From Nesterenkonia ebinurensis (lineage in GTDB: Bacteria; Actinomycetota; Actinomycetes; Actinomycetales; Micrococcaceae): DNA of 64,000 nucleotides. The DNA is taken from positions 248,001 to 312,000 of the forward strand of contig NZ_VWNF01000021.1 of the NCBI RefSeq assembly GCF_008711175.1, read 5' to 3'. Both the position numbers and the translations under genes were made by a program. Numbering within the stretch: position 1 is the first letter of the stretch; each line of letters begins with the position of its first letter. The notes under the pieces were generated by a model, which was not told the origin of the DNA, ran no database searches, and saw only the letters and a list, made by a program, of their open reading frames with translations. Shown piece after piece: positions 1,456 through 20,591 of this stretch.

Positions 1456-1468
1456 GGGGCAGCTCCTC

Positions 1469-2679: not shown

Positions 2680-2847
2680 TTACAGATCACCAATCTGTCT
2701 TATCGAGACCAATCTTAATATTTAAAATCGCGACATATTACTAATATAAGGCTAGCAATCACTGCAGCTACTCCAGCAATATATTTTAGGTATCCTTTAA
2801 TTATAAAACATAATGAAACTTCCGTAATTTTCTTTTGCAGTCCTTCA
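2680..2847. other. AT-rich spacer between two pseudogenes
   Basis: About 168 bases with markedly lower GC than the flanks and several TATA-like runs (for example around 2712-2750 and 2785-2815). I see no open frame with family resemblance, no hairpin with a T run and no RNA gene. It may be the former promoter of the thiolase/CoA-transferase operon. Confidence 0.5.
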
Positions 2848-3434: not shown

Positions 3435-3459
3435 GGTGGTGTCAAGTGGTGTTTGCAAC
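3435..3459. repeat. left terminal inverted repeat of the IS30 element
   Basis: These 25 bases match the reverse complement of 4689-4713 except at positions 11-13. Both share GGTGGTGTCA at the outer end and GGTGTTTGCAAC (or GTGTTTGCAAC) at the inner end. Confidence 0.85.
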
Positions 3460-3469
3460 TTCGGGGGTT

Positions 3470-4666
3470 TCAAGCTGCTGTGTGGAGGAATTGGGCCAGT
3501 CGGTTGGCCGGGGTGTGCAGATCTAGGGTCGGTCGGGGTCTGCGGTTGAGCGTGTCTTGGATGCGGCGCAGGTCGGTGGCGGTGTAGCCGGTGAGGTCGC
3601 TGCCTTTGGCGAACCAGTGTCGGAGTAGCTGGTTGGTGTTCTCGTTTGTTCCCCGTTGCCAGGGCGAGTGAGGATCGCAGAAGAATACTTGGGCATCCAG
3701 GGCGAGCTGGATCTTCTCGTAGCGGGCCAGCTCGCTACCGCGATCCCAGGTCACCGACCGCCGCAGATGTGCCGGCAGGTCTCGCATCGCGGTGATCATC
3801 GCCTGAGCGACCACATCCGCGTTGTATTTGCCGGGCAGGTGCAGCAGGATCGTGAACCGGCTGGCACGCTCGACCAAGGTGCCGATCGCCGAGTGGTTTC
3901 CGCCACCAATGATCAGGTCGCCTTCCCAGTGCCCGGGCACTGCCCGATCTGCGACCTCGGCCGGCCGCTGGCTGATCTTGAACGCTTCCTTGAACGGGCT
4001 GTTGCTCACTCTTGGGGCGGACTTAGAGACCCGGGAGCGGCGTTTCAGGGAGAGCCTCTGGTGCAGATCGGCTCGCAGGTTCCCGCGGGTCTGCACGTAG
4101 AGGGCTTGGTAGATCGTCTCGTGGCTCACCCTCATAGTCTGATCGTCGCCGAAGACGATCGGAAGCATTACCGAGATCAGCTTCGGCGACCAGCCCTCGT
4201 CCATCCATTCCTCGATCACTTGGCACAGGCGCGTGTTTTCGGCCAGAGTGAAAGGTTTCGGGCGGTGCCGGCGCTGATGGGTGCGGGTATGGGCGACGCG
4301 GGCGTAGTAGGCCCCGTCGGGACTGCTGTTACGGGCCACTTCGCGGTAGACCACGGACTTATCGCGTCCGATCTCGGCGCCGATCGCGGCATAAGACATG
4401 CCCTGGCGGCGGCCGAGCTGGATCACCATCCGATCCCCCAGGGTCAGCAGCCTGCCGCCAGGCATTCCGTCATCGGGTGCGGGGTCATCGATACCGCCGC
4501 CTTGGTGTCTACCGCGCCTGAGTCTCACCATCCCAGTGTGGGGCCACCATCCCTTCCCGGACCCCGCCGTTCCGCCGACAGCGACTGCCGCATCACCGAG
4601 AGTGGCGCCCTGGCAGACCATGTCGATGAACCGGTCACGAACATCCTGGGAAAACTTCACGCGCAC
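3470..4666 (-). CDS. IS30-family transposase
   Basis: A 398-residue DDE transposase. An N-terminal helix-turn-helix region includes GMSYAAIGAEIGRDKSVVYREVARN (about residues 85-115), the standard IS30 HTH_38 motif. The rve-type catalytic core carries GHWEGDLIIG (first Asp), TWDRGSE (second Asp) and CDPHSPWQRGTNENTNQLLR (Glu). The size is normal for the family and no stop or frameshift is seen. It cuts and joins the element ends. The stop lies 35 bases from the left end of the element. Confidence 0.95.
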   Translation of the reverse strand: MRVKFSQDVRDRFIDMVCQGATLGDAAVAVGGTAGSGKGWWPHTGMVRLRRGRHQGGGIDDPAPDDGMPGGRLLTLGDRMVIQLGRRQGMSYAAIGAEIGRDKSVVYREVARNSSPDGAYYARVAHTRTHQRRHRPKPFTLAENTRLCQVIEEWMDEGWSPKLISVMLPIVFGDDQTMRVSHETIYQALYVQTRGNLRADLHQRLSLKRRSRVSKSAPRVSNSPFKEAFKISQRPAEVADRAVPGHWEGDLIIGGGNHSAIGTLVERASRFTILLHLPGKYNADVVAQAMITAMRDLPAHLRRSVTWDRGSELARYEKIQLALDAQVFFCDPHSPWQRGTNENTNQLLRHWFAKGSDLTGYTATDLRRIQDTLNRRPRPTLDLHTPANRLAQFLHTAA

Positions 4667-4688
4667 AACGACTCACTCTCAGTAGAGC

Positions 4689-4713
4689 GTTGCAAACACC
4701 GTATGACACCACC
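4689..4713. repeat. right terminal inverted repeat of the IS30 element
   Basis: The partner of the repeat at 3435-3459, lying 23 bases upstream of the transposase start and followed by the GTG target duplicate at 4714-4716. Confidence 0.85.
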
Positions 4714-5127
4714 GTGGCCACACGCGTCTAGCACCGTAAGATCTAGATTCCGCTTCCCCCGAAAGTCCCCAGGAATCCATATGAGTCCTCTAATGCTCCG
4801 ATCGCGCCAGTGACCCCGCAACTCGCCAGCTGAGCTGCCATGACTCCAGTTCGCGCCGCCGCACCAGCGTGCAAGGGCTTCACCATTGTGCCAAAGTTCC
4901 CCCTGAGTCCAGAAGCGGCCGAAGCCGCGATCGCGATCGCTGCAATAGTCTGCTCCACGCCTAAGCCAAGAAACCGAGAGCTGGCTGCAACGGCTCCTAG
5001 ACTTCCAAGAACACTCGTGGCGTGCCAGCCGTCTGCCCGAAGTTGGGGATTCAAAACCTCCTGATTCGGACCGCCGCTTCCACGGTAGCCTCTCGCTCTA
5101 CAACAGTGAGATGGGCCGAGTTGGATA

Positions 5128-5928
5128 CTACAGGCAGTGATCCGAACTCCTACACCACTGCTCGGTAAACTTCTGCCATAGATGGAAAGCCTGCTGGGCG
5201 TGGCTGATCAACAGCAGGTGAGGAGCAGAAGAAATCGTCACATGTCGGCCCTTAAGAACGTCAGCGATCAAACCCACTTTCTCCGGCGGGGTGGACTTGT
5301 CGCTGCCTCCGCTGACGCACAGCACGTCAAGCGCACATGCTGCTCGCCATCCTGTGAAATCGGCAAAATCACGCCACAGCGCGTCCCAGCATGCCGGATC
5401 CATCCGGGCGAGGGTCTGCTGCGCAGAAACTACAAAGTCGGTCTGACTTCTAATATCGTCCTCAGTGAACCACCGATGCAACGTCTCCTCCATCAGTGAC
5501 TGCATCCCTTGCTCCGTGGCCACCGCTCGGTCCCGGAAAGTCTCATACCCCTGATCCGGCGAGCAGAACACCGTCAGGTTGGTCCAGCGTTCCGGAGCAG
5601 CCGCCGCGACGAGACCAGCGACGATTCCTCCCAGAGAAATGCCCAGTAGCCGGGGACGCTTGAGGGAAAACTGCTGAGCCATGTCCACCACGTCCTCAGC
5701 CATGTCAGCCAGCGACACCTGGTGCGGGGCAGCCTCAGACTCCCCATGGCCCCGAAGGTCAGGGGCGAGGACGAAATAGTCGGAAGCTGCGGCAATGACA
5801 GCAAATCTCTCTAAGGAGGTCGCATCTAACCCTGCTGAATGCAGTGCTATCACAGGAAGATTTCCCGGCTCACCCCAGGTGCAGACCCGGGTCTGCACCT
5901 GTCCGAGAGAAAGCGTCTCCCTTCTCAC
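5128..5928 (-). CDS. alpha/beta hydrolase (enol-lactonase-like)
   Basis: A 266-residue single-domain alpha/beta hydrolase. The oxyanion region is ALHSAGLDA (29-36), followed by DLRGHGES (57-64). The nucleophile elbow is GISLGG with Ser98; the likely acid is Asp210 (GGSDKST) and the base His237 (SAPHLLL). The closest well-known type is 3-oxoadipate enol-lactonase, but the substrate is not fixed by sequence. GTG at 5928 overlaps the CaiB stop in a GTGA, so it is translationally coupled. It is the last gene of the 12-gene operon, and its stop abuts the MmgE/PrpD remnant, so the operon may once have gone on into that gene. Confidence 0.85.
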   Translation of the reverse strand: MRRETLSLGQVQTRVCTWGEPGNLPVIALHSAGLDATSLERFAVIAAASDYFVLAPDLRGHGESEAAPHQVSLADMAEDVVDMAQQFSLKRPRLLGISLGGIVAGLVAAAAPERWTNLTVFCSPDQGYETFRDRAVATEQGMQSLMEETLHRWFTEDDIRSQTDFVVSAQQTLARMDPACWDALWRDFADFTGWRAACALDVLCVSGGSDKSTPPEKVGLIADVLKGRHVTISSAPHLLLISHAQQAFHLWQKFTEQWCRSSDHCL

Positions 5929-7175
5929 CCGCAGCGCCCTTCAGTGGCTGACGGCACGCCGATCACGCCACGCTCCCGCAAGCTTGTTATGCTCTGCTCA
6001 TCAATTCCTACTTCTCGCAACAGAGCCTCGGAGTGCTCACCCAACTGCGGTGGGTAGGAGTAGCCCTGAGGCTCATATCCGCCAGACTCCATCAGCCGAA
6101 CAGGATTGCCCACCACCTTTACAGATCGGCCCTGCGGGTCATCCAGCTGCACTACCATCTCCCGGCCGGCGATGCGCCCATCTTCAAGTGCTTCAGTCAC
6201 CGTTTTGATCAGGCCGCAGGGAACACGCTCAGCCTCCAGTCGGTCGACCCAGGTCGCGGCGTCGCTCGTGGTGAATTCAGCTTCCAGAATCTCCCAGAGC
6301 TCAAGCTTGTTCCGAAGACGCTCCGCTGCCGAGAGGAACCGTGAATCGGTGATCAGGTCCTCGCGGCCCAACACTCGGCACAGACCTTCCCACATCCGGT
6401 CCGTGTTTGCCGTGATCACGAACTCCCGGCGGTCTCCGGCGCGGAAAGATCGGTATGTGGGGATCGAATCGTGGCCCGCGCCCTGACGGCCGGGAGTGAC
6501 ACCACTGAGCATGGCGTAGACCGCCTGGTAACTGGTCATCACCAGCTGACCGTCCAGCATCGAGACGTCGATGTGCGCGCCCTTCCCGGTGCGCAGTCTG
6601 CGAATATAGGATGCCAGACTTCCGAACGCTGCGAACATACCGGCGACCAGATCCCCGACCGGGATGCCCAGCCGAACGGCAGGGCGATCTTCATCCCGCT
6701 CTCCAGTCAAACTCATCACTCCGGAGAGCGCCTGGACGATCATGTCGTAGGCAGGCTTGTCCTTCCATGGTCCGGTCTGTCCGAAGCCGCTGATCGAAGC
6801 CCAAACAAGCTCTGGACGCTCGCGCCGAATCTCTTCGGGATCAAGACCCAGGCGCTGGCAGACTCCCGGCCGGAAATTCTCGATGACGATGTCAGCCGTC
6901 TCGATCAGCTTCCTGATGGCAGATAATCCCTCGGGGTCCTTGGCGTCGATAGCGATAGAACGTTTGGAGCGGTTATTGGCCAGATAGTATGCACTATCCT
7001 CGCCGACAAAATGCGGCGGAATGCTCCGACTCGAGTCGCCCTGCAGGGGCTCTACCTTGATCACATCCGCACCGGCATCGGCAAGCATCTGGGTACCGAA
7101 AGGCCCAGAGAGGAAGGTCGTCAGGTCGACGATGCGCACACCGTCGAGCAGTGCGCCCGGAGAACTGGGATTCAT
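5925..7175 (-). CDS. CaiB/BaiF (class III) CoA-transferase
   Basis: A 416-residue member of the CaiB/BaiF family that moves CoA between carboxylic acids. Visible are DGVRIVDLTTFLSGPFGTQMLADAGADVIKVE-type N-terminal segments (11-42), RSKRSIAIDAKD (69-80), ENFRPG (99-104) and SISGFGQTGPW (128-137). Asp208 in SMLDGQ is the expected catalytic nucleophile. I chose the ATG at 7175 because it overlaps the thiolase stop (ATGA) and begins at the family's usual N-terminus; longer upstream extensions are antisense-like. In context it would activate the imported acid or an intermediate before thiolysis. Confidence 0.9.
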   Translation of the reverse strand: MNPSSPGALLDGVRIVDLTTFLSGPFGTQMLADAGADVIKVEPLQGDSSRSIPPHFVGEDSAYYLANNRSKRSIAIDAKDPEGLSAIRKLIETADIVIENFRPGVCQRLGLDPEEIRRERPELVWASISGFGQTGPWKDKPAYDMIVQALSGVMSLTGERDEDRPAVRLGIPVGDLVAGMFAAFGSLASYIRRLRTGKGAHIDVSMLDGQLVMTSYQAVYAMLSGVTPGRQGAGHDSIPTYRSFRAGDRREFVITANTDRMWEGLCRVLGREDLITDSRFLSAAERLRNKLELWEILEAEFTTSDAATWVDRLEAERVPCGLIKTVTEALEDGRIAGREMVVQLDDPQGRSVKVVGNPVRLMESGGYEPQGYSYPPQLGEHSEALLREVGIDEQSITSLRERGVIGVPSATEGRCG

Positions 7176-8335
7176 GCGTTCCTTTCGAAGATGTGGACAG
7201 TGCAGGCGCCGTGGTCCAAGCCGGCGATGCCTCCTCCAGTGACATGGGTCAGGGCCCGCCGGGCTCCTTCGACTTGGCGCGCGCCGGCACGGTCTTCCAA
7301 GTGCCACAAGGCTTCGACCACCTGGGCGACTCCACTGGCGCCCACTGGGTGTCCTTTGGACAGCAGGCCGCCGGAGGGATTGACCACCACATCCCCGCCG
7401 TAGGTGGTCCTGCCCTGACGCAGCCAAGAGACTGCTTCACCGTCGGGAGAGATCCCCAGCGCCTCGTAGTAGATGAGTTCAGCAATGCTGAAGGCGTCAT
7501 GGAGCTCGATGACATCAATATCCTCGCTACCGCCGCCAGCCTGTTCATAGGCCTCCTGCGCCGAGGCTCGGGAGATCTCCGGGCGCAACATATTCCGGAA
7601 CCCGGCTTCGAACTGCCCAGAGTGCAGCACCGAGGCCACAGTCCGCATTCCCTTCTGCCCTCGGCGTCGGCGAACACCCTCGGCCATGACGATCACCGCC
7701 GCTGCGCCGTCGCCGGTGGGGCAGCACTGCATCAGGGTCAAGGGGTCCGAGATGGGACGCGAATTGAGCACGTCCGCCTCGGTGACCTCCGACTGGAACT
7801 GCGCATAGGGGTTGGCTGCGCCATGGCGGCGTGCCTTGACGCTCACTGCGGCCAAATCTGACACAGTAGCTTTTCTCTCATGCAGAAAACGCTGCGCCCG
7901 CATGGCGTAGATGGCAGGCATCACCACACCGTTCTGCACCTCAGGGTCCTCCTGGACCAGCGGCAGGGTGCCTCCTCCGAACTGGGTGAGCTTGTCGACA
8001 CCGATGGCGAGCGCAATCTCAGCTCTGCCCTCCTGCACTGCCTGCACTGCCAGGTGCACGGCAGTGGCTCCGCCGGAACAGGCGTTGTCCACATTAGTCA
8101 CGGGGATGTGCCCGACCCCAAGCTCCTTCAGGATGCGCTGACCAGTGAGCATCCCACCGAAAGCGTGGCCGCAGAAGACGGCGTCGAGCTCTGACTTCTC
8201 GATTCCTGCGTCACGGAGTGCTCTCCGTACAGCCGGGACCGCCAGTCCCGAATACGAGGACTCGCGGTGCTTGCCCATGCGGATCATTGCACCACTGACC
8301 ACAGAAGCAGCATTTCCGGTGGTAGTCGTCGTCAT
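7172..8335 (-). CDS. thiolase-family protein (SCP-x/lipid-transfer thiolase type)
   Basis: A 387-residue thiolase-fold enzyme of the subclass that works with DUF35 partners. Cys86 in NACSGGAT is the acyl-accepting residue. ELHDAF contains His279, and NPSGGLLSKGHPVGASG contains His329; the end is GGGIAGLDHGACTVHIF. In place of the C-terminal catalytic Cys motif of degradative thiolases it has GLDHGAC, as in SCP-x thiolases acting on branched or cyclic 3-oxoacyl-CoA. It overlaps both neighbours by 4 bases. Thiolytic ring or chain cleavage of an acyl-CoA made by the adjoining CaiB protein is a reasonable inference. Confidence 0.88.
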   Translation of the reverse strand: MTTTTTGNAASVVSGAMIRMGKHRESSYSGLAVPAVRRALRDAGIEKSELDAVFCGHAFGGMLTGQRILKELGVGHIPVTNVDNACSGGATAVHLAVQAVQEGRAEIALAIGVDKLTQFGGGTLPLVQEDPEVQNGVVMPAIYAMRAQRFLHERKATVSDLAAVSVKARRHGAANPYAQFQSEVTEADVLNSRPISDPLTLMQCCPTGDGAAAVIVMAEGVRRRRGQKGMRTVASVLHSGQFEAGFRNMLRPEISRASAQEAYEQAGGGSEDIDVIELHDAFSIAELIYYEALGISPDGEAVSWLRQGRTTYGGDVVVNPSGGLLSKGHPVGASGVAQVVEALWHLEDRAGARQVEGARRALTHVTGGGIAGLDHGACTVHIFERNA

Positions 8336-8736
8336 GACAGCTCACCTTCTTTCTCCACGAATGCCCATCCTGTGGGGCTCTGCTGGGTCGTGCGTACGGT
8401 GACCGGCAGATTACAGGCCAGTCGCTCATCCGTCACCAGCACCTGTGCGAAAACCCGCAGGTCAGGCAGCAGGTCGACATACCCGAGGGTGTACGGGGTC
8501 TCAAAGGCGGGGGAGATGTGAACGGTGGTCCAGGAATAAAGAGTCCCGTCCGCTGGAAGTTCAATGATTTCGATGTCGCTTGCATGGCATCGGTGACACA
8601 CATAAGCGCGCGGGAAGCTGTGTGCTGCGCAGGCGCGGCAGCGTCCCCCTTGCAGCAGGCCTGAGCCTGTCAGCACCGCCGGCTGGCCCTCCCCTATGTC
8701 CGGCTCAGGCTCCAGTACCAATTCCGCATCAGACAT
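8332..8736 (-). CDS. DUF35 zinc-ribbon/OB-fold acyl-CoA-associated protein
   Basis: A 134-residue protein with a rubredoxin-like zinc ribbon (Cys33, Cys36, Cys47, Cys50 in GRCRACAAH and YVCHRCHAS), followed by an OB-fold part containing GTLYSWTTVHISPAFETPYTLGYVDL-like strands. DUF35 proteins pair with thiolases and with steroid side-chain retro-aldolases, and are thought to bind acyl-CoA. Start and stop overlap conventions (ATGA with the thiolase) indicate a two-protein complex made in equal amounts. Confidence 0.9.
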   Translation of the reverse strand: MSDAELVLEPEPDIGEGQPAVLTGSGLLQGGRCRACAAHSFPRAYVCHRCHASDIEIIELPADGTLYSWTTVHISPAFETPYTLGYVDLLPDLRVFAQVLVTDERLACNLPVTVRTTQQSPTGWAFVEKEGELS

Positions 8737-8744
8737 TTGATGTC

Positions 8745-9488
8745 CTACCTTCTCTCTTCATGGTGCTGCCAGAATTTCGCCAGCACATCAGCTACTTCGG
8801 TCGGCTGCTCAACGAACGGCGTGTGCCCTGACTTCTCGAAGACTATCGGCGCCGAGGCACCCGTCCGCTCACTGATTCGTTCCATATCGGCAGGTGACTT
8901 TGCCGTGTCCTGCCTACCCGCCAGCAGCAGCAGGGGCGATCGGATGCTCAAGACCTCGGCCCACAGTTCCCGACGGCGGAAGACCTTCTCCGCAGCAGTG
9001 CCCACACCGGTATCCAAACTGGCAAAGTGTTCCAACCAGTAGTCTCGGGCAGCGTCGCCTTGGCGAAGAAACCAGTTGCCAAACATGGTGGCACCGATCT
9101 GCTCCACTATGGCCGCCGGCCCCTTGTCCCGCAGCTGTGCGACCAGTCCGTCGAACTTTTCTGGGCGCTGCTCGGCATCGGCAGTGGCGGCGGAAAGGGT
9201 ACAGGTCCGGACCCGTTCCGGCTTAGTGGCTGCGACGATCATCGCCACATAAGCCCCCATTGAGGAGCCGACAAGGTGAACCGGTGCGGGCAAAGTGTCC
9301 AGAAGCCCGACGACGTCGCCTGCCAGTTCATCCACCGTTCCGGGCTCTTCCGCGCTTCGCGTGCCCTGACCGCGGTGGTCAGGGGCGAGCACCGTTCGTC
9401 CGGTGGCCTGGCTAAGCTGATCAAACATCTTCCCGTCGAAGAAGAGGGAGTGCAGACCAAGAACGGGGTACACGGATTCCTGCCTCAC
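8745..9488 (-). CDS. alpha/beta hydrolase
   Basis: A 247-residue alpha/beta hydrolase with a short N-terminus (GLHSLFFDG oxyanion loop at 11-19). The nucleophile elbow is GSSMG with Ser76; Asp194 (GRQDTAKSP) and His222 (SGHTPF) complete the triad. It starts with GTG directly after the TGA of the dehydroquinase-like gene (TGAGTG arrangement) and lies 8 bases before the DUF35 gene. It probably hydrolyses an ester, lactone, beta-diketone or thioester in the same pathway. It is distinct from the other hydrolase of this operon (5128-5928), with little similarity beyond the fold motifs. Confidence 0.85.
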   Translation of the reverse strand: MRQESVYPVLGLHSLFFDGKMFDQLSQATGRTVLAPDHRGQGTRSAEEPGTVDELAGDVVGLLDTLPAPVHLVGSSMGAYVAMIVAATKPERVRTCTLSAATADAEQRPEKFDGLVAQLRDKGPAAIVEQIGATMFGNWFLRQGDAARDYWLEHFASLDTGVGTAAEKVFRRRELWAEVLSIRSPLLLLAGRQDTAKSPADMERISERTGASAPIVFEKSGHTPFVEQPTEVADVLAKFWQHHEERR

Positions 9489-10010
9489 TCACGCGCCGGG
9501 CGCCAGAAAGTTCTCATCGTCGAGGCCGTGGATAAGGGCCACCAGAGCGCCTGCGTAGCTGTACTGCCGCAGACCCATGCACATGCCGGTGGCAGTGTGG
9601 GTGAAGCTGGAAGCGATCCGCCCACCTCCGAGGCCGCGGCTGGAGCCTGCAGAGGCCTGGATATTGGCAAAGTGGACCTCCACTACTGGGCGCCCAGTGT
9701 CCTCGAGTGCGTGCCGCACACCTTCGCCCTTGGTGGTCAGGCCGGCCGGATTGATGATGTAGCCGTCCACTCGGGCGCCGGATTCGTGAATGTACTCCAG
9801 AATCTCGCCTTCATGGTTCGAATCGAAGGTCTCGACCTCGGCGCCGAGCCTTTCGGCGTACTCTTTGACGTAGGTCTGAAGATCCTCCAGCGACTGGATG
9901 CTGCCGTAGACCTGTTTGCTTCGACGGCCCAGGCTGGACATATTAGGACCGTCGATGACGGCAATGCGGTGTTTCCTGCTGCTCTGACGAACGACATTGT
10001 GCTCTGGCAT
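9489..10010 (-). CDS. type II 3-dehydroquinate dehydratase-like protein, divergent
   Basis: A 173-residue protein of flavodoxin-like type II dehydroquinase fold. Conserved parts are DGPNMSSLGRRS (20-31), the Tyr of the flexible lid (Tyr35 in QVYGS), SNHEGE (64-69) and VEVHFAN with the equivalent of the catalytic His (His113). The usual NPGAYTHTS segment is replaced by NPAGLTTKGEG (87-97), losing a substrate-binding His, and the late region differs (ASSFTHTATGMCMGL). Known enzymes eliminate water from 3-dehydroquinate by an enolate mechanism. The altered pocket and a catabolic operon suggest dehydration of another cyclic hydroxy-ketone or acid rather than shikimate synthesis. Confidence 0.8.
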   Translation of the reverse strand: MPEHNVVRQSSRKHRIAVIDGPNMSSLGRRSKQVYGSIQSLEDLQTYVKEYAERLGAEVETFDSNHEGEILEYIHESGARVDGYIINPAGLTTKGEGVRHALEDTGRPVVEVHFANIQASAGSSRGLGGGRIASSFTHTATGMCMGLRQYSYAGALVALIHGLDDENFLAPGA

Positions 10011-10036
10011 GATCTTCCTCCTGTAGTTCTGTTTCT

Positions 10037-10792
10037 TTAGGTGTAACGGAGCCCGGCGTCGACCAGCAAGGACTGGCCGGTGATGTAGCCGGCTTCATTC
10101 GATGCGAAGAATCTGACGGCGGAGAGGACATCTTCAGGAGTGCCTTTCCGCTTGATAGCGTGCTCCTTCAGCAGCTCCTTCCAGTTGTCGTCAGTGATGG
10201 TTTCGCGCGGGATTTCGGTCACAATGCCGTGCGGGCTGACGACGTTGGCGGTGACTTCGTAGTCACCGAGCTCGGTAGCCAGCGCCTTGTTGAACGCCTG
10301 AACGGCTCCCTTCGACGCCACGTAATGGGCGTAGTTGGCGCGTCCGGTGACCACCACACTGGATGAGATGTTGACGATGCGGCCGAAGCGCTGCTCCTTC
10401 ATGTAGGGGGCTACCGCCTGGCACATCAGCAGCACACCGCGGGTGTTGACCGCGAAAACCTTCTCCCACTCATCCACACTGATCTCTTCGAACGGTTTCA
10501 TCTTCAGCGAGGAGAAGATCGCGGCATTGTTAATGAGCACATGGACCGTTCCATAGTGCTCCACCGTCTGACTGACGAGCTTGGAAACACTACCTTGATC
10601 ACTGACGTCTACGGGCAGCCCGATGGCTTCCTGGCCGGCGGACTGGATCTCAGCGGCGACCTTTTCGACGGCGACCTGGTTGATATCGGCAGCCACTACT
10701 TTGTCGCCCTGGGCGGCGAACTCATGGGCGTACTTGGCTCCGATGCCCTGACCGGCTCCTGTGACAATAACGACCCGACTGTTGGGTTCCAC
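10037..10792 (-). CDS. short-chain dehydrogenase/reductase
   Basis: A 251-residue classical SDR. The cofactor motif TGAGQGIG sits near residue 12, NNAAIF marks strand 4, and the catalytic set is NISSS plus YVASK. The C-terminus is GYITGQSLLVDAGLRYT. GTG at 10792 follows an AGGAGAGG site about 10 bases upstream, and gives the standard SDR N-terminus (EPNSRVVIVTG); longer versions would overlap the upstream SDR gene. It is expected to oxidise a secondary alcohol with NAD(P). It is the second of two SDR genes in the operon, separated from the first by 34 bases. Confidence 0.87.
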   Translation of the reverse strand: MEPNSRVVIVTGAGQGIGAKYAHEFAAQGDKVVAADINQVAVEKVAAEIQSAGQEAIGLPVDVSDQGSVSKLVSQTVEHYGTVHVLINNAAIFSSLKMKPFEEISVDEWEKVFAVNTRGVLLMCQAVAPYMKEQRFGRIVNISSSVVVTGRANYAHYVASKGAVQAFNKALATELGDYEVTANVVSPHGIVTEIPRETITDDNWKELLKEHAIKRKGTPEDVLSAVRFFASNEAGYITGQSLLVDAGLRYT

Positions 10793-10826
10793 GGGTGTTG
10801 ATCCTCTCCTTAAATGTATTAGGTGT

Positions 10827-11579
10827 TCACGCCTCTGTAATGTGCAGTCCGGCCATTCCGCCGTCCACAATGATGGTGCTGCCCACAGTGGAGCGCATAG
10901 TCGGATGGGCCAGGAACGCCACGGCCTGCGCTACTTCCCGGGGTGCGACCATGCGGCCTGTGGGCTGCCGCTCTTCAAACTGCCGGCGACACAGAGCAGG
11001 ATCCTCGGCTCGCGCTGCCAGCTCGGACATGAAGGGGGTGTCCACCGTGCCGGGGTTCACGGCGTTGACCGTGATGCCCTCAGCGACCAGATCGGCCGCC
11101 ATGGCCCGGGTCATTGATTCCACCGCACCTTTGGTGGCCGAGTACAGTACCCGCTGACGCAGACCCGAAGTGGCAGTGCAGGACGACATATTGACGATGG
11201 CCGGTGCACTAGCCTGGCGCAGCAGCGGAAGCGCAGCCCGGGTGGCCCGCACGAAGCCGAGCACATTGATATCCCAGAGCCAATGCCACTCCTCGTCAGT
11301 GCCGGTTTCCACTCCTCCCACGAAGCTGACTCCGGCGTTGTTCACCAGAAGGTCCAGCCCGCCAGAGATCTCCTGCACCTGTTGCAGCACAGCCTCCACC
11401 GAGCTTTGACTCCGGAGGTCACCATCGTGGTAATGCACGTCTTCCACGGCTTCCTCCGGCGCAGCGATGTCAAGAACGTGGACTTCTGCTGCCAAGTCTG
11501 CGAAAGTCTGGGCACAGGCGTGACCGATGCCCTTAGCACCTCCTGTAATCAGTACTCGTCTTCCCTTGAAACTATCCAT
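10827..11579 (-). CDS. short-chain dehydrogenase/reductase
   Basis: A 250-residue classical SDR with TGGAKGIG near the N-terminus, DIAAPEE after strand 2 (an Asp there favours NAD over NADP), NNAGVS, and the catalytic NMSS and YSATK motifs. It ends GSTIIVDGGMAGLHITEA. It overlaps the IclR stop by 8 bases. Two different SDRs in one operon suggest two separate hydroxyl oxidations, or a ring alcohol and a later beta-hydroxyacyl-CoA. The exact substrate is not visible. Confidence 0.87.
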   Translation of the reverse strand: MDSFKGRRVLITGGAKGIGHACAQTFADLAAEVHVLDIAAPEEAVEDVHYHDGDLRSQSSVEAVLQQVQEISGGLDLLVNNAGVSFVGGVETGTDEEWHWLWDINVLGFVRATRAALPLLRQASAPAIVNMSSCTATSGLRQRVLYSATKGAVESMTRAMAADLVAEGITVNAVNPGTVDTPFMSELAARAEDPALCRRQFEERQPTGRMVAPREVAQAVAFLAHPTMRSTVGSTIIVDGGMAGLHITEA

Positions 11580-12411
11580 GCTTGGTTTCCTCCTGATGGG
11601 GGGCGCCGAAGAACTCGCCGATGCGGCGCGAGGCGTCCTTCAAGGCGTTGAGAATTTCTGATGGCTCACCGTGTGGGGATCGTTCTTTCGGGTGGGTCAG
11701 GGTGATCGATCCGACCACCCCGCCAGGGCTGAAGACCGGCACTGCGACGCCGTGGGCGCCGGGAAGCTTCTCCCCCTTTGTCTCCACATAACCCTGGCTG
11801 CGAATCGCAGCCAGCTCACGCTTCAGAACAGCCGGGTCAGGCAGTGTCACTCCACTGGCTGAGTCACCAGCTGTGGCCTTCTGCCGCTCACTCTCATAGG
11901 CCTGATCTAACTCGTTCTCAGGCAGATACGCGGCGACGGACTTGCCGGATGCTCCCCAGAGCAAAGCTGTGGGTTTGTTGAGTTCGATCCGATACTGCAG
12001 TACGTGGTTTCCGTCTGCCCGACTCACGAACGACACAGATGAGGTGGCATGTGAGTAGAGGCCGAAGATGACGGTCTCGTCAAAGTGAGCAGCAAGCTCC
12101 TTGAGTATCGGGCGCACCATTCTTGGCAGATCTACTGTGGCCAACGTTCTCGCAGCAATACGGTAACCCTCGACCCCTACAGAGTACGCTTGTAGGTCAC
12201 CTTCTTGTTTGACCATTCCCTCCTGCATCAACAATCCAAGCAGTCGGTGTGTCGTGGAGGGGGGAAGACCTGTCTTCTTGGCGACTGCCGATACACTCAC
12301 AGGTCGCCCAGTATCCACTACCGCAGCTAATACACGAACTGCACGCGCAACCGTACCGGTGAGCTGTCCAGCGTTACCCGAGGTTACTGTTTCCTGTCCC
12401 ATTCGCCTCAT
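11572..12411 (-). CDS. IclR-family transcriptional regulator
   Basis: A 279-residue regulator. The N-terminal winged helix includes SVSAVAKKTGLPPSTTHRLLGLLMQEG (about 40-66). The effector domain follows, with LELN-type strands (YRIELNKPTALLWGASGKSVAAYL) and VAVPVFSPGGVVGSITLT. ATG at 12411 overlaps the dctM stop (ATGA); another ATG three codons later is equally possible. Lying between the TRAP genes and the enzyme genes, it should sense the imported substrate or an intermediate and control its own operon. Confidence 0.9.
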   Translation of the reverse strand: MRRMGQETVTSGNAGQLTGTVARAVRVLAAVVDTGRPVSVSAVAKKTGLPPSTTHRLLGLLMQEGMVKQEGDLQAYSVGVEGYRIAARTLATVDLPRMVRPILKELAAHFDETVIFGLYSHATSSVSFVSRADGNHVLQYRIELNKPTALLWGASGKSVAAYLPENELDQAYESERQKATAGDSASGVTLPDPAVLKRELAAIRSQGYVETKGEKLPGAHGVAVPVFSPGGVVGSITLTHPKERSPHGEPSEILNALKDASRRIGEFFGAPHQEETKHG

Positions 12412-13679
12412 CTCATAAACGTTGTCAGGCCGGGGAAGACGTTCACGACGATGAGCACTGGCAACACTGCACAGACCAGGAGTTTCACAGTAGGGATCAC
12501 CATCGTGTGGAACTTAGCGCCAGTTGCCGAAGCAGCGACAAAGAGGTTCGGGGCAAAAGGTGGTGTAGCCAAACCCATACCAAGGTTGAGAACCATGATC
12601 AGCCCGAAATGGATGGGGTCGATTCCCATAGCGTTCGTCAACGGTAACAGCAACGGTACCAGAATAACGATTGCAGTGTTCTCCTCTATGAACATTCCAA
12701 CCACAAATAGCAGCAGATTCAACAAGATGAGAAGAACCCATGGGGATACTCCCCACTCCTGGATGATATTCGCTATCTGCTGAGGAATACCAGAGAGCAC
12801 AACTGCCCTTGCAAAAGCGCCACCCATAGCAATTATCAAAAGGATGGGAGCGGTCATCAATAATCCATTCAGAATCGCATTTCCAACTCCTGTCAGCTTC
12901 ATCTCTCGATAGATAAGGATTCCGATAAACAACCCATAGGCGCAGGCGATGGCGCCAGACTCTGTTGGCGTAAACATCCCAGAGTAAATACCGCCAAGGA
13001 TAATTACTGGCATGATCAATGCTGGGACAGCTGAACCAATTCGCCTTGAAGTTGAGGCACGTTTCTCCGTTGCAATCTTCGCACCTAAATCATCAAGATC
13101 TTTGCCGCGGGCCCAGATGAAGTTGTAAATGATCACCGCTATGGCAACTAAAATGCCGACCACTGCTCCTGCCAGGAACATCTGAGCAATAGACACACCT
13201 GCTGCCACAGCGTAAACGATTATGGGAACGCTAGGTGGTATAAGTGTTCCAATAATTCCTGATACTGCCACCAGTGAACCAATATAAGCCTTAGGGTATC
13301 CGCGTTGGCTCATCTCGCCCGACATGATCCGTCCGATGGCTGAAACTGTCGCAACGGAAGAACCGGAGATTGATCCAAATAACCCACAAGCCCCTGTGAC
13401 GGTCGCCCCTAGACCTCCTTTAACCCTCCCCAGAAACATGCTGACAAAATCAATGAGTCTCTTAGATACACCACCTTGCTGCATGATCGACCCAGCAAGC
13501 AGAAAGAAAGGAATCGCCAGGAAAGTAAAAGAGTCAAGAGTCCTAAACGCTACGGTAGGCACCTGTCCAGGATTTGTACCGGTAGATATAAAGTATATAA
13601 AGGCTCCGATCCCAAAGGCTACAGCAACGGAGACACCTAGAATAATGGAGAGCAGTACCGCTCCTGCTGCTACGGGCAT
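12408..13679 (-). CDS. dctM: TRAP transporter large permease (DctM)
   Basis: A 423-residue, highly hydrophobic protein with about 12 membrane segments and the DctM patterns FTFLAIPFFLLAG, GLFGSISGSSVATVSAIG and LVAVSGIIGTLIPPSVPIIVYA. It forms the ion-coupled channel of a tripartite ATP-independent periplasmic-type transporter and uses the Na+ or H+ gradient to import an organic acid. Its ATG overlaps the dctQ stop (TAATG). The family serves C4-dicarboxylates, sialic acid, keto acids and aromatic or alicyclic acids, so the substrate stays open. Confidence 0.93.
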   Translation of the reverse strand: MPVAAGAVLLSIILGVSVAVAFGIGAFIYFISTGTNPGQVPTVAFRTLDSFTFLAIPFFLLAGSIMQQGGVSKRLIDFVSMFLGRVKGGLGATVTGACGLFGSISGSSVATVSAIGRIMSGEMSQRGYPKAYIGSLVAVSGIIGTLIPPSVPIIVYAVAAGVSIAQMFLAGAVVGILVAIAVIIYNFIWARGKDLDDLGAKIATEKRASTSRRIGSAVPALIMPVIILGGIYSGMFTPTESGAIACAYGLFIGILIYREMKLTGVGNAILNGLLMTAPILLIIAMGGAFARAVVLSGIPQQIANIIQEWGVSPWVLLILLNLLLFVVGMFIEENTAIVILVPLLLPLTNAMGIDPIHFGLIMVLNLGMGLATPPFAPNLFVAASATGAKFHTMVIPTVKLLVCAVLPVLIVVNVFPGLTTFMR

Positions 13680-14248
13680 TAGCGCTCAACTCCTTGGGAC
13701 CCTGGAAAACCTGTTGTTGTTTTGTCGGCGTAGTCTCCAGGGCGAATAAAGGTCCTGATCAGCAAGCAAATACTGAAAATTCCGCCAAGTCCTGCACCTA
13801 ATACCATCGTGGCAAATGGCCACGTGAGTGGGATCGAGAGTTCTACAGATGATTGGCCTGTCCGCTGGTAACTCTCCAGCGTGAGGAAAGTGAAATTTGA
13901 GAATGCTAGGTAGAACAGCCCTTCGATGATGAAGATCGTCCTGTGGAGCCACACCTGAGTCATTCCTTCGGGCAAGAAATCTGCGAGTGCTCCTACAGCG
14001 ATCTGTAGTTTGGAGTTGATCAATACTGGTAAGGCCAGAAAAGTGGTTCCGACCATTAAGTACCGAGCAATCTCATCAGCTCCAGCCATTGTCGGGAAGG
14101 AGCCATACCGACCAGCGATCTGCACCAATGTGACCACAAGGATCATCCCAAACCCAACTGTCAGCACAACCCGCAGGAAGTGGTCCAGGATTCTGAGCAC
14201 TTGGTCCAGAATCGGGACCGGCTTCCTAGCGATCTCGACTCCTCTCAC
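13679..14248 (-). CDS. dctQ: TRAP transporter small permease (DctQ)
   Basis: A 189-residue membrane protein with four predicted helices. QIAGRYGSF and the conserved WLHRTIFI and LTLESYQRTGQSS segments are typical of DctQ. It supports the large permease and links it to the binding protein. It is separated from dctP by two bases and overlaps dctM, so all three transporter parts are co-translated. Confidence 0.9.
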   Translation of the reverse strand: MRGVEIARKPVPILDQVLRILDHFLRVVLTVGFGMILVVTLVQIAGRYGSFPTMAGADEIARYLMVGTTFLALPVLINSKLQIAVGALADFLPEGMTQVWLHRTIFIIEGLFYLAFSNFTFLTLESYQRTGQSSVELSIPLTWPFATMVLGAGLGGIFSICLLIRTFIRPGDYADKTTTGFPGSQGVER

Positions 14249-14250
14249 GG

Positions 14251-15294
14251 CTAAGCATCCTCAGCAGCAGCATCTGCCTCTTGGCGCAGCTGTCCTAGCA
14301 GTTCTGCTCCAAAGGTATCTTCCTGGGCATCCCAGACCACGTCACGAATCGCGACAAATTCAGCCATCTGCTCTTCAGAGAGCTCGATGATCTCTAGTCC
14401 GTCTTCCTCTAGTTCTTCGAGTCGTTCGTCGACAGAGTCACGGACCTCCTGCGTCACTTCCAGTGAGATCTCATCGATAAGCTCAGAGAGCACCTCCCGA
14501 TCCTCTTCGCCCAGTGATTCCCAAACTTCGGTATTACAGGAGACATTGCCCGTACCGTACCCGTGACGTGTCAGTGTGAGGTAGTCCTGAACTTCATGGA
14601 AAGCAGAATTATAAGTGAGAACGATGCCGTTGTCTTGGCCATCCACTGTGCCCTGCTGCAGTGCGGTATAGAGCTCAGGAAAGGGTATTGGAGTCGGGTC
14701 TGCGCCCCATTCTTCGAAGAGATCGATATACATGGGAAGACCAGGCACTCGGAAGCTGAGCCCCCGAAGATCCTCTGGACTCTCAATCGGGCGGATGCTG
14801 TTGGTCATCCCGCGGAAGTCGTTCTCATAGAAACCCAGCATGGTAATTCCGAGCTCATCGAGCACTTCACGCTCATTGGTTTGGATTACTCCCTCAGGAC
14901 TGAAGAAGACCTCATCAGCTGCTTCGTAGGTCGTCACAATGTACGGCAGGAACGACAACTGTAAACGGTCGTCCAACCCAGAGGGCGCGACGGCAATGAA
15001 AGCACACTGGAGGTCGCCACTGGCCAGGCCCGCCCCCATCTCTTCATCGCCACCGAGCTGACCCCCAGGGTAGACAGTAAAGTTCACCCGGCCGTCCGTC
15101 ACATCGGGAGCTCTTTCGGCTAGAGCAGTCGCCCCGCTGTGAACAGCTGAGGTTTCTGGAAAGGTATGGGCCAGATCGAGAGTCACACTCTCTGCTTCTT
15201 CCTCATCAGTGCCGAATGCACACCCCACTAGAGCTGTAACGGCCACTAATGCAACGCCCGGTGCAACAATGCGGCTCTTCCGCACGAGTGTCAT
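14251..15294 (-). CDS. dctP: TRAP transporter substrate-binding lipoprotein (DctP)
   Basis: A 347-residue binding protein. The N-terminus is a lipoprotein signal ending ALVGC (Cys25 would be lipidated), followed by an acidic linker. DctP motifs include LSFRVPGLPMYIDLFEEWGADPTPIPFPELYTALQQGTVDGQDN, where the Arg of SFRVPG is the usual carboxylate-binding residue. That predicts an acid substrate. It is the first gene of the 12-gene operon; the 146 bases upstream hold the probable promoter and a palindromic element at 15386-15401. Confidence 0.93.
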   Translation of the reverse strand: MTLVRKSRIVAPGVALVAVTALVGCAFGTDEEEAESVTLDLAHTFPETSAVHSGATALAERAPDVTDGRVNFTVYPGGQLGGDEEMGAGLASGDLQCAFIAVAPSGLDDRLQLSFLPYIVTTYEAADEVFFSPEGVIQTNEREVLDELGITMLGFYENDFRGMTNSIRPIESPEDLRGLSFRVPGLPMYIDLFEEWGADPTPIPFPELYTALQQGTVDGQDNGIVLTYNSAFHEVQDYLTLTRHGYGTGNVSCNTEVWESLGEEDREVLSELIDEISLEVTQEVRDSVDERLEELEEDGLEIIELSEEQMAEFVAIRDVVWDAQEDTFGAELLGQLRQEADAAAEDA

Positions 15295-15385
15295 CTTTGA
15301 CTCCTTTGATTTTAGGAACTAATTGACAGTAATTCCGGTGATCGGAATGCTATTCCACTTCTAATGTGATGTTAGGCACTCCTAC

Positions 15386-15401
15386 TGTGATTGTCAACAC
15401 A
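15386..15401. promoter_or_regulatory. palindromic element upstream of the dctP operon
   Basis: TGTGATTGTCAACACA has TGTG and CACA arms around TTGTCAA and lies 92 bases upstream of dctP. Its core ATTGTCAACA recurs at 16605-16614 beside the GntR gene. It also matches the GlxR/CRP pattern TGTGAN6TCACA with one mismatch, so a GntR or a CRP-type protein could bind it. Confidence 0.45.
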
Positions 15402-15440
15402 TTGGAAGCAACTCCTCGGGAATTGAGGCCGAGGAACCAC

Positions 15441-15845
15441 TCACCCCCGCCCATCTGCTACTGACACAGTGGGTTCAAGAGTGTCTGCGTCGACTTCCTC
15501 ACGCCACGCTTGGACCCCCGCCTGAAAAGCAACTACCCCAGCTTCCGGCAAGGCAATCTCAATAGCCTCGAGAATTTCCTGTGCCGAGCGCCCCAGGTCC
15601 AGGGCAACTCGAATATGGCTCCTAATCTGAGGTTTCGGCGCTCGCATCACAGTCAGGCTTACAATGAAGATCAACTCCTTGACCCCCCTGTCGAGCAGCC
15701 TTGGCTTCAGATAGGCAGCATGAACCACATTGTTTGCAGCCTTCATCACCTCAAAATCATTCTTTGCCATCACCTTGTGATAGTCCAGAACATAGCCCCG
15801 AGTCTCTGCCATACTGTCAATATATTTCTGGGATTCGTCGCTCAT
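15441..15845 (-). CDS. carboxymuconolactone decarboxylase (AhpD-like) family protein
   Basis: A 134-residue all-helical protein of the CMD family, with KELIFIVSLTVMRAPKPQIRSHIRVALDLGRSAQEILEAIEIALPEAG as the CMD core (about 55-105). The AhpD redox pair CxxC is absent, which argues against a peroxidase role. The His in IRSHIRVAL is kept, which fits the decarboxylase or a non-redox branch. It follows the GntR gene by 39 bases and precedes dctP by 146 bases. It may decarboxylate or rearrange a ring intermediate; the assignment to a reaction is speculative. Confidence 0.82.
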   Translation of the reverse strand: MSDESQKYIDSMAETRGYVLDYHKVMAKNDFEVMKAANNVVHAAYLKPRLLDRGVKELIFIVSLTVMRAPKPQIRSHIRVALDLGRSAQEILEAIEIALPEAGVVAFQAGVQAWREEVDADTLEPTVSVADGRG

Positions 15846-15884
15846 TTTATCCTTTCTATTTTATTTACAAATTTTGACAAATTG

Positions 15885-16544
15885 CTAGCTAGCAAACCTC
15901 GTCAGCGCCACTGACTTCGCTGCATTGACATGCTCACGGCTGCGACGCTCCGCCAACTCAGCATCATGGGCCTCAATCGCCTCGACCACCCCAGACAACT
16001 CCTCAAAGCTTCGCTGCACTCGCCCAGGCACTCCAAGGGTGTAAGAGCGAAGCAAAGCTATACGTGACTGGACATTTTCAAGCAGATCATCCAGAACTTC
16101 ATTGTCACCAATATCTATAATCATCGAATAAAATTCATCTTTAACAGAGATCAATCCCTCCGTATCATCTGCATTTCCTTTGTTTCTAAACTCTTCTAAA
16201 AGACGATAGAGTTTCCTCACCTCAATTTCGGTGGCATGGTCCGCGGCCAGCCGTGCAGCCATTCCCTCGAGCGCAGCTCTCACGTCGTACAGAGCGCCCA
16301 CATCATTCCGAGAAAGAACCGCGACCTTGGGGCCACTTCGCGAATCTAGCGTGATGAGTTTCTGCGTCTCTAGCTGCCGGAGCGCCTCACGCACGACAGT
16401 TCGCGACACTCCCAACTCCTCCTCCAACTGCTTCTCCACAAGACGCTGTCCCGGTGAGTAATTTCCACTAACTATTTGCTGCCTGATGAAGGAAGTCGCC
16501 TGAGAGCGAAGAGGGGCTGCCTCTCGCTGAAGTGCTGGAACCAT
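15885..16544 (-). CDS. GntR-family regulator, FCD (FadR) subfamily
   Basis: A 219-residue protein. The GntR winged helix covers about residues 10-75 (VEKQLEEELGVSRTVVREALRQLETQKLITLDSRSG), followed by an all-helical FCD domain (YDVRAALEGMAARLAADHATEIEV, then conserved Asp/His positions such as DEFYSMIIDIGDNEVLDDLLENVQSRIALLRSY). FCD regulators usually bind a carboxylate through a metal. It is divergent from the hydrolase at 16646 with a perfect-armed palindrome between them. It probably represses both sides and, from the shared motif core, perhaps the TRAP operon. Its GC is lower than the window average. Confidence 0.9.
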   Translation of the reverse strand: MVPALQREAAPLRSQATSFIRQQIVSGNYSPGQRLVEKQLEEELGVSRTVVREALRQLETQKLITLDSRSGPKVAVLSRNDVGALYDVRAALEGMAARLAADHATEIEVRKLYRLLEEFRNKGNADDTEGLISVKDEFYSMIIDIGDNEVLDDLLENVQSRIALLRSYTLGVPGRVQRSFEELSGVVEAIEAHDAELAERRSREHVNAAKSVALTRFAS

Positions 16545-16600
16545 GTCCTCAAACTTTCTATTCGATCATGTGATGCAGGCAACAGTATCCGACGGTATTA

Positions 16601-16619
16601 TCGTATTGTCAACATACGA
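16601..16619. promoter_or_regulatory. operator-like palindrome between the GntR gene and the divergent hydrolase
   Basis: TCGTATTGTCAACATACGA has perfect TCGTAT/ATACGA arms around TGTCAAC. It lies 57 bases from the GntR start and 27 bases from the hydrolase start, a position suited to repressing both promoters. Its core ATTGTCAACA recurs upstream of dctP. Confidence 0.6.
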
Positions 16620-16645
16620 GATGATGATCATGCAAAGAGGAGACC

Positions 16646-17950
16646 ATGGAACAGCTCGACTTTCAACGATGGATTACTTCAGCCAGCCAGGACAGCGAAC
16701 TGAAGCGAACTGGAGCGCTATCCACATTCCAGTTAGAGCTTGTCCAAGATGTCGACAACTGGATCGCCATCAAGTGGGACAGGGGGAAGCTCATCAGTTT
16801 GAATGAACGCATTCCCTCTTGCTCAGGGACTGACGGTACGCATCTAAAACCACTAGATTTGATCGTGCTACGGGGAAACTCATCAACGTGGGCAGAGCTA
16901 GTCGATCCGTCTCCAAAGCCGCGCCGACATGACATTCTTTCGCTCACTAAACAGACGGACGGAATCGTCATCGAAAAAGGTCAGCAGGCCTTCATCCGGC
17001 ACCTTCCTACTGTGAACCGCTTATTTCAACTGCTGCGTGACCACGATGAGCAAGTGCCTAAAAAAACGGCTTCACAGTCTTTCTCTAATAAGCCAGTCTT
17101 CGAAGAGGTAGTAGGGAGATACGTTCATTTCTCTTCGGGCGGGAAAGAGCACCGTATATATTTTGAAGACTCTTATCCCAATCGCCCCCATCTCCCCGTT
17201 CTTCTGGCTCTTCACACAGCTGGGGCGGACTCCCGCCAGTACAGGCACCTGTTGAACGATTCCGACATCACTAGTCAATTCAGAGTCATTGCCTTCGATC
17301 TCCCAGCACACGGGAAATCCTTACCTTCAACAAAGTGGTGGCAGGAGGAGTATCGCCTCACAACTGATGCTTATGCTTCTCTCGTCGAGGACTTTGCTGA
17401 TACTTTGAGCCTGCAACGTCCAGTAGTGCTCGGATGTTCGATGGCTGGATCTCTAGTACTTGAGTTGGCGCGGCGACAGCCGCATCGGTGGAGAGGCGTG
17501 ATTGGTCTCTCCGGCGCGCTCAAACTTCAAGGCAGATTTCAGGACTGGCCGCTCTCCCCCAGCATCAATGCTCAACAAGTGATCCATACCTGGACAGCAA
17601 GCCTCATGGCTCCCCACGGCCCGGAGGATGAGCACTACGAAACACGATGGATCTATAGCCAAGGGGGACCGGGTATCTATCGCGGGGATACGTACTTCTA
17701 CTCCGAAGACTTCGATCTTCGGGGTAAAGCAGCGCAGATAGACACCTCGGTTTGCCCCGTTTATTTGCTTACAGGGGAGTATGACCATGCCTGCACTCCT
17801 TCTGACACTGATGCAGCACGGGAGGCAATAACAGGAGCTAGCGGCTATACGATGGAAAGAATTGGACATTTCCCTATGAGTGAAAACTACTCACTATTCC
17901 GGACTCATCTTCTGCCAGTTCTTCATGAGGTCATCGCCTCAAATAGCTGA
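16646..17950 (+). CDS. alpha/beta hydrolase with an extra N-terminal domain
   Basis: A 434-residue two-part protein. Residues 1-135 form an unassigned alpha+beta domain (FQRWITSASQDSEL, WDRGKLISL, LIVLRGNSSTWAELVDPSPKPRRHDILSL), whose pattern recalls SCP2-like lipid-binding folds; I cannot confirm that. After a linker, residues 155-430 are an alpha/beta hydrolase with LLALHTAGADSRQY (oxyanion loop), the elbow GCSMAG (Ser265), Asp380 (GEYDHACTP) and His408 (IGHFP). The start follows a GAGGAG site by five bases. It is divergent from the GntR regulator. It likely hydrolyses an ester or C-C bond of the substrate family handled by the operon. Confidence 0.8.
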   Translation: MEQLDFQRWITSASQDSELKRTGALSTFQLELVQDVDNWIAIKWDRGKLISLNERIPSCSGTDGTHLKPLDLIVLRGNSSTWAELVDPSPKPRRHDILSLTKQTDGIVIEKGQQAFIRHLPTVNRLFQLLRDHDEQVPKKTASQSFSNKPVFEEVVGRYVHFSSGGKEHRIYFEDSYPNRPHLPVLLALHTAGADSRQYRHLLNDSDITSQFRVIAFDLPAHGKSLPSTKWWQEEYRLTTDAYASLVEDFADTLSLQRPVVLGCSMAGSLVLELARRQPHRWRGVIGLSGALKLQGRFQDWPLSPSINAQQVIHTWTASLMAPHGPEDEHYETRWIYSQGGPGIYRGDTYFYSEDFDLRGKAAQIDTSVCPVYLLTGEYDHACTPSDTDAAREAITGASGYTMERIGHFPMSENYSLFRTHLLPVLHEVIASNS

Positions 17951-19117: not shown

Positions 19118-19141
19118 TGCCTGCGAGACTTCAGGTGCGAA

Positions 19142-20588: not shown

Positions 20589-20591
20589 GCT

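Follow-up and report, generated by a model that had tools for sequence, protein, structure and literature searches.

What do the twelve minus-strand genes at positions 5128-15294 of a 64,000-nucleotide stretch of Nesterenkonia ebinurensis contig NZ_VWNF01000021.1 (the whole stretch is here called the window) do together, and do they belong to a route already on record? The first-pass annotation had described them as an undescribed coenzyme A (CoA)-dependent catabolic operon with uptake through a tripartite ATP-independent periplasmic (TRAP) transporter. Judged from sequence, they very probably form a TRAP-fed, CoA-dependent catabolic operon under the control of its own IclR-family protein, and one of its enzymes, a paralogue of type II dehydroquinase (DHQase), probably keeps the chemistry of its family on a changed substrate.

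Gene content and conservation of the unit

The open reading frame list gave twelve intact genes over this region, all on the minus strand and none with a broken reading frame, and all twelve proteins scored above the Pfam curated cut-offs for their families; the cluster that had been claimed is thus present, with its families, where it had been placed. The order begins with a complete TRAP set, comprising the solute-binding protein DctP (14251-15294; PF03480, 237.4 bits; TIGR00787, 180.4 bits against a cut-off of 175.05), the small membrane subunit DctQ (13679-14248; PF04290, 56.5 bits) and the large membrane subunit DctM (12408-13679; PF06808, 334 bits). It continues with an IclR-family regulator (11572-12411; PF01614 and PF09339) and two short-chain dehydrogenases/reductases (SDRs), both with the GxxxGIG and YxxxK motifs, SDR 1 (10827-11579; PF13561, 179.4 bits) and SDR 2 (10037-10792; PF13561, 209 bits for the longer frame). 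These are followed by the DHQase paralogue, a probable dehydratase of altered specificity (9489-10010; PF01220, 115.6 bits), and by a PcaD-like alpha/beta hydrolase, hydrolase 1 (8745-9488; PF12697, 79.4 bits; TIGR02427, 100.7 bits, cut-off 255.85). The last four genes encode a Zn-ribbon/OB-fold DUF35 protein of the ChsH2/BbsA type (8332-8736; PF01796 and PF12172), a BbsB-type thiolase (7172-8335), a CaiB/SUGCT-like class III CoA-transferase of 416 amino acids (5925-7175; PF02515, 398 bits), whose CoA_transf_3 domain spans the whole length (profile positions 1-365 of 366), and a second PcaD-like alpha/beta hydrolase, hydrolase 2 (5128-5928; PF00561, 61.7 bits; TIGR02427, 115.5 bits, same cut-off).

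The packing by 4-base overlaps, which had been stated for the cluster in general, holds at four of the eleven junctions (dctM/iclR, DUF35/thiolase, thiolase/CaiB and CaiB/hydrolase 2); the rest consist of one 1-base overlap, one 8-base overlap and five gaps of 0-34 bases. The CaiB start was corrected to 7175, at an ATGA overlap with the thiolase stop, and SDR 2 probably starts at 10792 and not at 10870, up to which its frame is open.

We scanned genome contigs with patterns from the single DHQase paralogue sequence, a search in which only close relatives can appear, and obtained three loci, in Aeromicrobium camelliae, in A. phragmitis and on a 3.1 kb contig of the metagenome-assembled genome (MAG) of Candidatus Agrococcus pullicola. 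In both Aeromicrobium species all twelve genes are colinear and on the same strand, with protein identities between the window and A. camelliae ranging from 47% (hydrolase 2) to 81% (thiolase), and the Agrococcus contig carries six operon genes in that order, its ends truncating SDR 2 and CaiB. The conserved gene order by which the first-pass annotation had proposed to check its reading was thus found. Since Aeromicrobium belongs to the Propionibacteriales and Agrococcus to the Micrococcales, at least the six-gene half of the unit crosses orders. Between the two Aeromicrobium copies, with the starts of dctQ, CaiB and hydrolase 2 set from similarity, the ratio of nonsynonymous to synonymous substitution rates (dN/dS) was 0.010-0.189 across the twelve genes; in the comparison with the window, synonymous changes were saturated or nearly so over much of it. 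The order and strand kept in the two Aeromicrobium loci, the whole reading frames and the low dN/dS values indicate a gene cluster beyond chance.

Thirteen other genes or gene pieces of the window (two MmgE/PrpD pieces, an IS30-type transposase and ten genes in 15441-26265) were compared with the Aeromicrobium loci, whose flanks cover about 4.7 kb before the block and 5.6 kb behind it. Twelve of them were unmatched there and the thirteenth, a second CaiB, matched the operon CaiB gene itself, so that the shared unit, as far as these flanks show, ends at the boundaries given by the first-pass annotation.

The twelve-gene unit is rare. Among 149 genomes of the host's family, matches to the DHQase query other than the operon gene were distant (at most 43% identity), and at E ≤ 1e-30 the query was matched in 2 of 394 class genomes (the host and G495), 1 of 396 phylum genomes (the host) and 2 of 396 order genomes (the host and G922), three samples that overlap. 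The relatives in G495 (59% identical) and G922 (47%) lie in different neighbourhoods. Megablast of window positions 1-18300 gave no plasmid match.

The dehydroquinase paralogue and the thiolase module

The operon DHQase did not reach the cut-off of the AroQ model TIGR01088 (107.4 bits against 169.85), and the host carries a second, shikimate-type AroQ match, 39% identical, on contig C12 at 40754. We compared the residues of five operon-type sequences, four from operon loci and one (G495) from another setting, with those of 29 shikimate-type sequences, which came from 29 of 30 fetched family loci, the thirtieth being the host operon copy; numbering and residue roles were assumed to follow the M. 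tuberculosis enzyme. The catalytic N12, R19, Y24 and H101, together with N75 and E99, are kept in all five operon-type proteins. Position 88, however, is H in all five and D in all 29 shikimate-type sequences, R108 is lost in all five and present in 29/29, and position 81 is T throughout the operon type and H in 26 of the 29 others. In the window protein, one residue is inserted before R112 and six after it. The paralogue resembles AroQ/QsuC in fold family and catalytic residues, with an Arg aligned at R112, and differs from them in its score below the cut-off, in D88H, H81T, the loss of R108 and the insertions, and in being set beside CaiB and the thiolase. The chemistry is probably kept and the substrate probably changed, a conclusion supported chiefly by D88H, the absent R108 and the insertions; the recognition residue R112 is apparently kept, which argues for less than a full change of substrate, and T81 is not exclusive.

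By tblastn, DHQase relatives with 44-46% identity were found in Mesorhizobium, Shinella and Pseudonocardia. In these loci and in G922 the neighbours are flavin adenine dinucleotide (FAD) oxidoreductases with, variously, a gene of the fumarylacetoacetate hydrolase family, a molybdenum (Mo)-hydroxylase and amidohydrolases, and neither CaiB nor the thiolase was matched there.

The thiolase/DUF35 pair is probably of the benzoylsuccinyl-CoA thiolase type and would cleave its substrate thiolytically. The thiolase matched BbsB best (NCBIfam NF053628, 338.4 bits; PDB 7pxp_C, E 2.8e-86), and the best NCBIfam and PDB matches of the DUF35 protein were to BbsA of the same enzyme (NF053627, 68.7 bits); the equivalog cut-offs of 750 and 250 bits, respectively, were not reached. 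The motifs NACSGG, HDAF, GHPVGASG and HVTGGG occur in all four thiolase orthologues, as in BbsB, and all four DUF35 proteins contain C-x2-C-x10-C-x2-C. The available text of PMC12329534 describes a four-Cys zinc site in the DUF35 partner, and gives YDHF/YDCY as the catalytic motif of steroid aldolases. The latter is absent from the four thiolase orthologues. Since the BbsB motifs and the four-Cys DUF35 are present and YDHF/YDCY is absent, thiolysis is likelier than aldol cleavage.

The thiolase was also searched in other genomes. At E ≤ 1e-110 it was found in 4 of 384 genomes of the host's class (the host, G169 at 70% identity, G351 at 64% and G330 at 58%), and among plasmids, of which 632 records matched and 40 were listed, the two best were those of M. 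branderi (62%) and Variovorax VAI-C (55%). All five non-host loci, with thiolases 55-70% identical to that of the window, have a CaiB 49-63% identical in the same 20-25 kb. DUF35 was found by similarity in four of them, a Zn-ribbon-like stretch was seen by eye upstream of the thiolase in G351, and a relative of hydrolase 2 is present in two (G169 and G330). DctPQM and the DHQase were unmatched in all five. Their own front ends consist of P450, SDR and MFS genes in G169; P450, aldehyde dehydrogenase and SDR genes in G351; a Mo-hydroxylase and, by eye, a crotonase in G330; a P450, an SDR, an aldehyde dehydrogenase, an FAD-dependent oxidoreductase and two enoyl-CoA hydratase-related genes in M. 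branderi; and a Mo-hydroxylase, a GMC oxidoreductase, an enoyl-CoA hydratase and a hydrolase in Variovorax VAI-C. These DUF35-thiolase-CaiB modules thus share thiolase and CaiB with the operon and have other oxidative front ends, whereas the operon alone has DctPQM and the DHQase; it is a back end of known type joined to a front end not seen in the other loci examined. Four further plasmid loci, with thiolases 46-51% identical, have an annotated OB-fold or zinc-ribbon gene next to the thiolase, and their loci also include SDR and CoA-transferase genes; similarity to the window DUF35 was not detected in these four.

The closest solved relative of the thiolase and DUF35 pair is BbsAB (7pxp), with like motif residues. 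The bbs operon also has a class III CoA-transferase and SDRs, and it carries acyl-CoA dehydrogenase and enoyl-CoA hydratase genes, neither of which was found by Pfam searches among the twelve. BbsD (7pcs_B) and the benzylsuccinate CoA-transferase (9fn0) were matched lower in the PDB lists, SDR 2 and CaiB resembling other families more, and the best 60 of the 696 PDB matches of SDR 1 include none from Bbs. Compared with bbs, the twelve-gene operon adds the DHQase paralogue, two hydrolases and the TRAP importer. Membership in the bbs operon type was considered and, for the SDRs and CaiB, discarded on these matches.

Adjacent pairs of DHQase paralogues were also observed, at 13530-14468 of locus L037, 4125-5019 of L038 and 9542-10597 of L070. 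The first member of the L070 pair seems, by eye, to be without the R19/Y24 segment, and in L037 and L038 the similarity starts upstream of the annotated starts. Such pairs may perhaps form heteromeric enzymes.

A candidate operator upstream of dctP

Alignment of the regions upstream of dctP in the three complete loci gave a conserved block, the 17 bp palindrome ATTCCGRTCACCGGAAT, which is newly described here (15332-15348 in the window, minus strand, ATTCCGATCACCGGAAT); it is likely the operator of the operon's own IclR protein. Its arms, ATTCCGGT and ACCGGAAT, stand around one base in the Aeromicrobium loci (L040 4726-4742 and L041 4721-4737), and the window copy has one arm mismatch.

With up to three mismatches allowed, the window contained this site alone, read from either strand, where chance would give 0.12 on average. 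In the host assembly (3.74 Mb) the single exact site is that upstream of dctP; allowing two mismatches adds just its own reverse reading and one site with one mismatch, and the control reading gave 0. This additional copy (G000:C1:40046-40062, L059) is surrounded by 3 kb without operon genes. The two Aeromicrobium assemblies, too, each contain a single exact copy, on the operon contig, and as inexact ones its reverse reading and one site with two mismatches. A promoter-like pair, TTGACA-17-TAACAT (15369-15397, minus strand; 10 of 12 matches), lies upstream of dctP, and the palindrome lies 20 bases downstream of its -10 element, a position that would suit a repressor.

Candidate route, alternatives and neighbouring genes

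The gene set suggests a sequence of steps that, taken as a whole, we hold to be reasonably probable. DctPQM would import a hydroxylated carboxylic acid, and the two SDRs, judged by their family, would oxidise secondary alcohols to ketones. The DHQase-fold enzyme would then eliminate water beta to the ketone by the Tyr/Arg enolate mechanism, acting, as the observed residues suggest, on a substrate other than 3-dehydroquinate. In what is the weakest step, a PcaD-like hydrolase may open a ring, lactone or 1,3-diketone to give a beta-keto acid, onto which CaiB would move CoA, probably from succinyl-CoA. The BbsB/BbsA-type complex, whose thiolase residues are observed, would convert the beta-ketoacyl-CoA into two acyl-CoAs, the second hydrolase would remove an ester or thioester product, and the IclR protein would control the unit by binding the one palindrome found before dctP.

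Such a back end would repeat the hydrolase, CoA-transferase and thiolase scheme of the beta-ketoadipate pathway, CaiB and BbsBA taking the places of PcaIJ and PcaF. The lower beta-ketoadipate pathway (PcaD, PcaIJ, PcaF) has the same functional set, and PcaD-type models give the best scores for both hydrolases; it differs in that the CoA-transferase of the operon is CaiB and its thiolase of the BbsB type, and that neither PcaB nor PcaC is among the twelve. That the substrate is a ring compound is a tentative suggestion. An equally tentative reading is that the operon encodes an undescribed route in which a re-specified, shikimate-derived DHQase removes water from a hydroxy-keto acid outside the shikimate series, probably an alicyclic one, the ring is hydrolysed and CaiB with the BbsAB-type pair completes the breakdown, the beta-ketoadipate lower pathway being convergently copied.

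No characterised operon with this gene set was found in the open-access literature or in the gene contexts examined, in agreement with the earlier statement that no characterised pathway with this set was known. The uptake, oxidation, dehydration, CoA activation, cleavage and hydrolysis that the first-pass annotation had read from the genes is plausible as a general scheme, and our results supported it in part, namely for the compact unit with its TRAP import, for the transfer of CoA, for a cleavage that is probably thiolytic and not of the aldol kind, and for hydrolysis.

On the substrate, DctP gave little direction. All three DctP proteins have an SFRVPG motif, whose Arg we take to be a functional residue; the best 60 of 100 matches to solved TRAP proteins were all distant and indicated no ligand, and an AlphaFold model (3 sequences) was poor, with a mean predicted local distance difference test (pLDDT) score of 36.1, and allowed no guess from structure. 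One alternative is a plain quinate/shikimate utilisation operon, in which quinate is oxidised by an SDR and converted on to 3-dehydroshikimate by the DHQase, the other genes being auxiliary. Quinate use usually begins with SDR, DHQase and uptake, the Arg is kept at R112, and a protocatechuate dioxygenase gene lies on another host contig. We nevertheless consider this quite improbable: Pfam searches with all twelve proteins and NCBIfam searches with ten of them found no dehydroshikimate dehydratase or other aromatising family, CaiB, DUF35 and the BbsB-type thiolase are unneeded for such a route, and D88, H81 and R108 are altered. An acyclic sugar-type acid, oxidised by SDR, dehydrated by the DHQase-fold enzyme, activated by CaiB and split by the thiolase into acetyl-CoA and a hydroxyacyl-CoA that is later hydrolysed, would be in keeping with the TRAP solute-binding protein, with two alpha/beta hydrolases that could both be thioesterases, and with the oxidative deoxyribonate route on record in the available text of PMC6365646. 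It appears unlikely, however, as the related back ends adjoin genes for a P450, an SDR, an aldehyde dehydrogenase or a Mo-hydroxylase, which suggest more hydrophobic or cyclic compounds, and as models described in the available text of PMC12329534 suggest that benzoylsuccinyl-CoA thiolase has a more open pocket than some homologues.

The remaining alternatives concern the thiolase/DUF35 pair. A retro-aldolase like Ltp2-ChsH2 or Sal-Shy, which would remove a side chain, belongs to the same superfamily and has the same DUF35 partner, and the window protein does match the ChsH2 DUF35 (6ok1_B, E 1e-7); the presence of the BbsB motifs and the absence of YDHF/YDCY in all four orthologues make this function very unlikely. 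Friedel-Crafts acylases likewise contain DUF35/thiolase pairs, and weak PhlB and PhlC matches were obtained, as would be expected of a biosynthetic acylation operon like PhlABC. The best matches, however, are BbsA and BbsB, and the TRAP importer and the CoA-transferase together point to uptake and breakdown, which leaves a biosynthetic role hardly credible.

Several observations weigh against the self-contained, horizontally spread catabolic operon that we propose. In the DHQase, T81 also occurs in 3 of the 29 shikimate-type sequences, and an Arg aligns at R112, between the inserted residues, in all five operon-type proteins. The TIGR02427 scores of both hydrolases are weak, leaving ring opening poorly based. 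Promoter-like sites in the region numbered 7 against 5.1 expected, which is not above chance, and the pair upstream of dctP is therefore supported only by its position. Complete copies are few, at three loci. In the rest of the Agrococcus MAG assembly DctP was matched at no more than 30% identity, which speaks against a uniform twelve-gene unit, the operon front being either missing from the assembly or replaced; this assembly also has no exact palindrome, and its two sites with two mismatches have no operon genes alongside. The GC content of the operon (58.3%) is lower than the 62.6% and 64.7% of the window from 22.8 kb onward, and that of the A. camelliae copy (67.5%) is lower than in its surroundings (70.1%), but the adjoining stretches of the window are also low (58.0% at 1-3044 and 51.0% at 15295-17950). 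Composition thus does not single out the block, and since its GC resembles that of the adjoining DNA, the case for horizontal spread depends on how rare the unit is and on its gene order. The uniqueness of the palindrome in both Aeromicrobium assemblies offsets the kept R112, the neighbouring GC and the Agrococcus result, and the unit is probably a self-contained and horizontally mobile catabolic operon.

If this reading is true, it gives a dehydroquinase paralogue a role outside the shikimate pathway; in Mesorhizobium, Shinella, Pseudonocardia and two genomes of the host's class, further paralogues neighbour different oxidoreductase and hydrolase genes. It also suggests that BbsAB-like thiolases are used beyond benzylsuccinate breakdown, and brings transporter, enzymes, regulator and likely operator together in a compact 10 kb test case.

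Around the operon, decayed pcaJ/pcaI/pcaF-like genes lie at 109-2679 on the minus strand (TIGR02428, TIGR02429 and TIGR02430), the pcaF-like thiolase being interrupted by a TAG at 2290-2292. Elsewhere the host genome has a protocatechuate dioxygenase gene above its cut-off, and none of the host's other thiolases reached the pcaF cut-off. Two MmgE/PrpD fragments (3045-5054, minus strand; Pfam) flank a transposase gene (3470-4666) recognised by eye as of the IS30 type; as a thirteenth operon gene they were rejected, being broken, split round the transposase and unmatched in the Aeromicrobium loci. Directly upstream of the operon lies a carboxymuconolactone decarboxylase-family gene (15441-15845, minus strand), followed by a GntR/FCD regulator gene (15885-16544, minus strand), neither of which was matched in either Aeromicrobium locus. 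Finally, 18266-22786 contains minus-strand genes for a LigB-type extradiol dioxygenase, a citryl-CoA lyase-like protein and a SUGCT-like CaiB, together with a plus-strand IclR gene, and is perhaps a second catabolic cluster, for aromatic acids.

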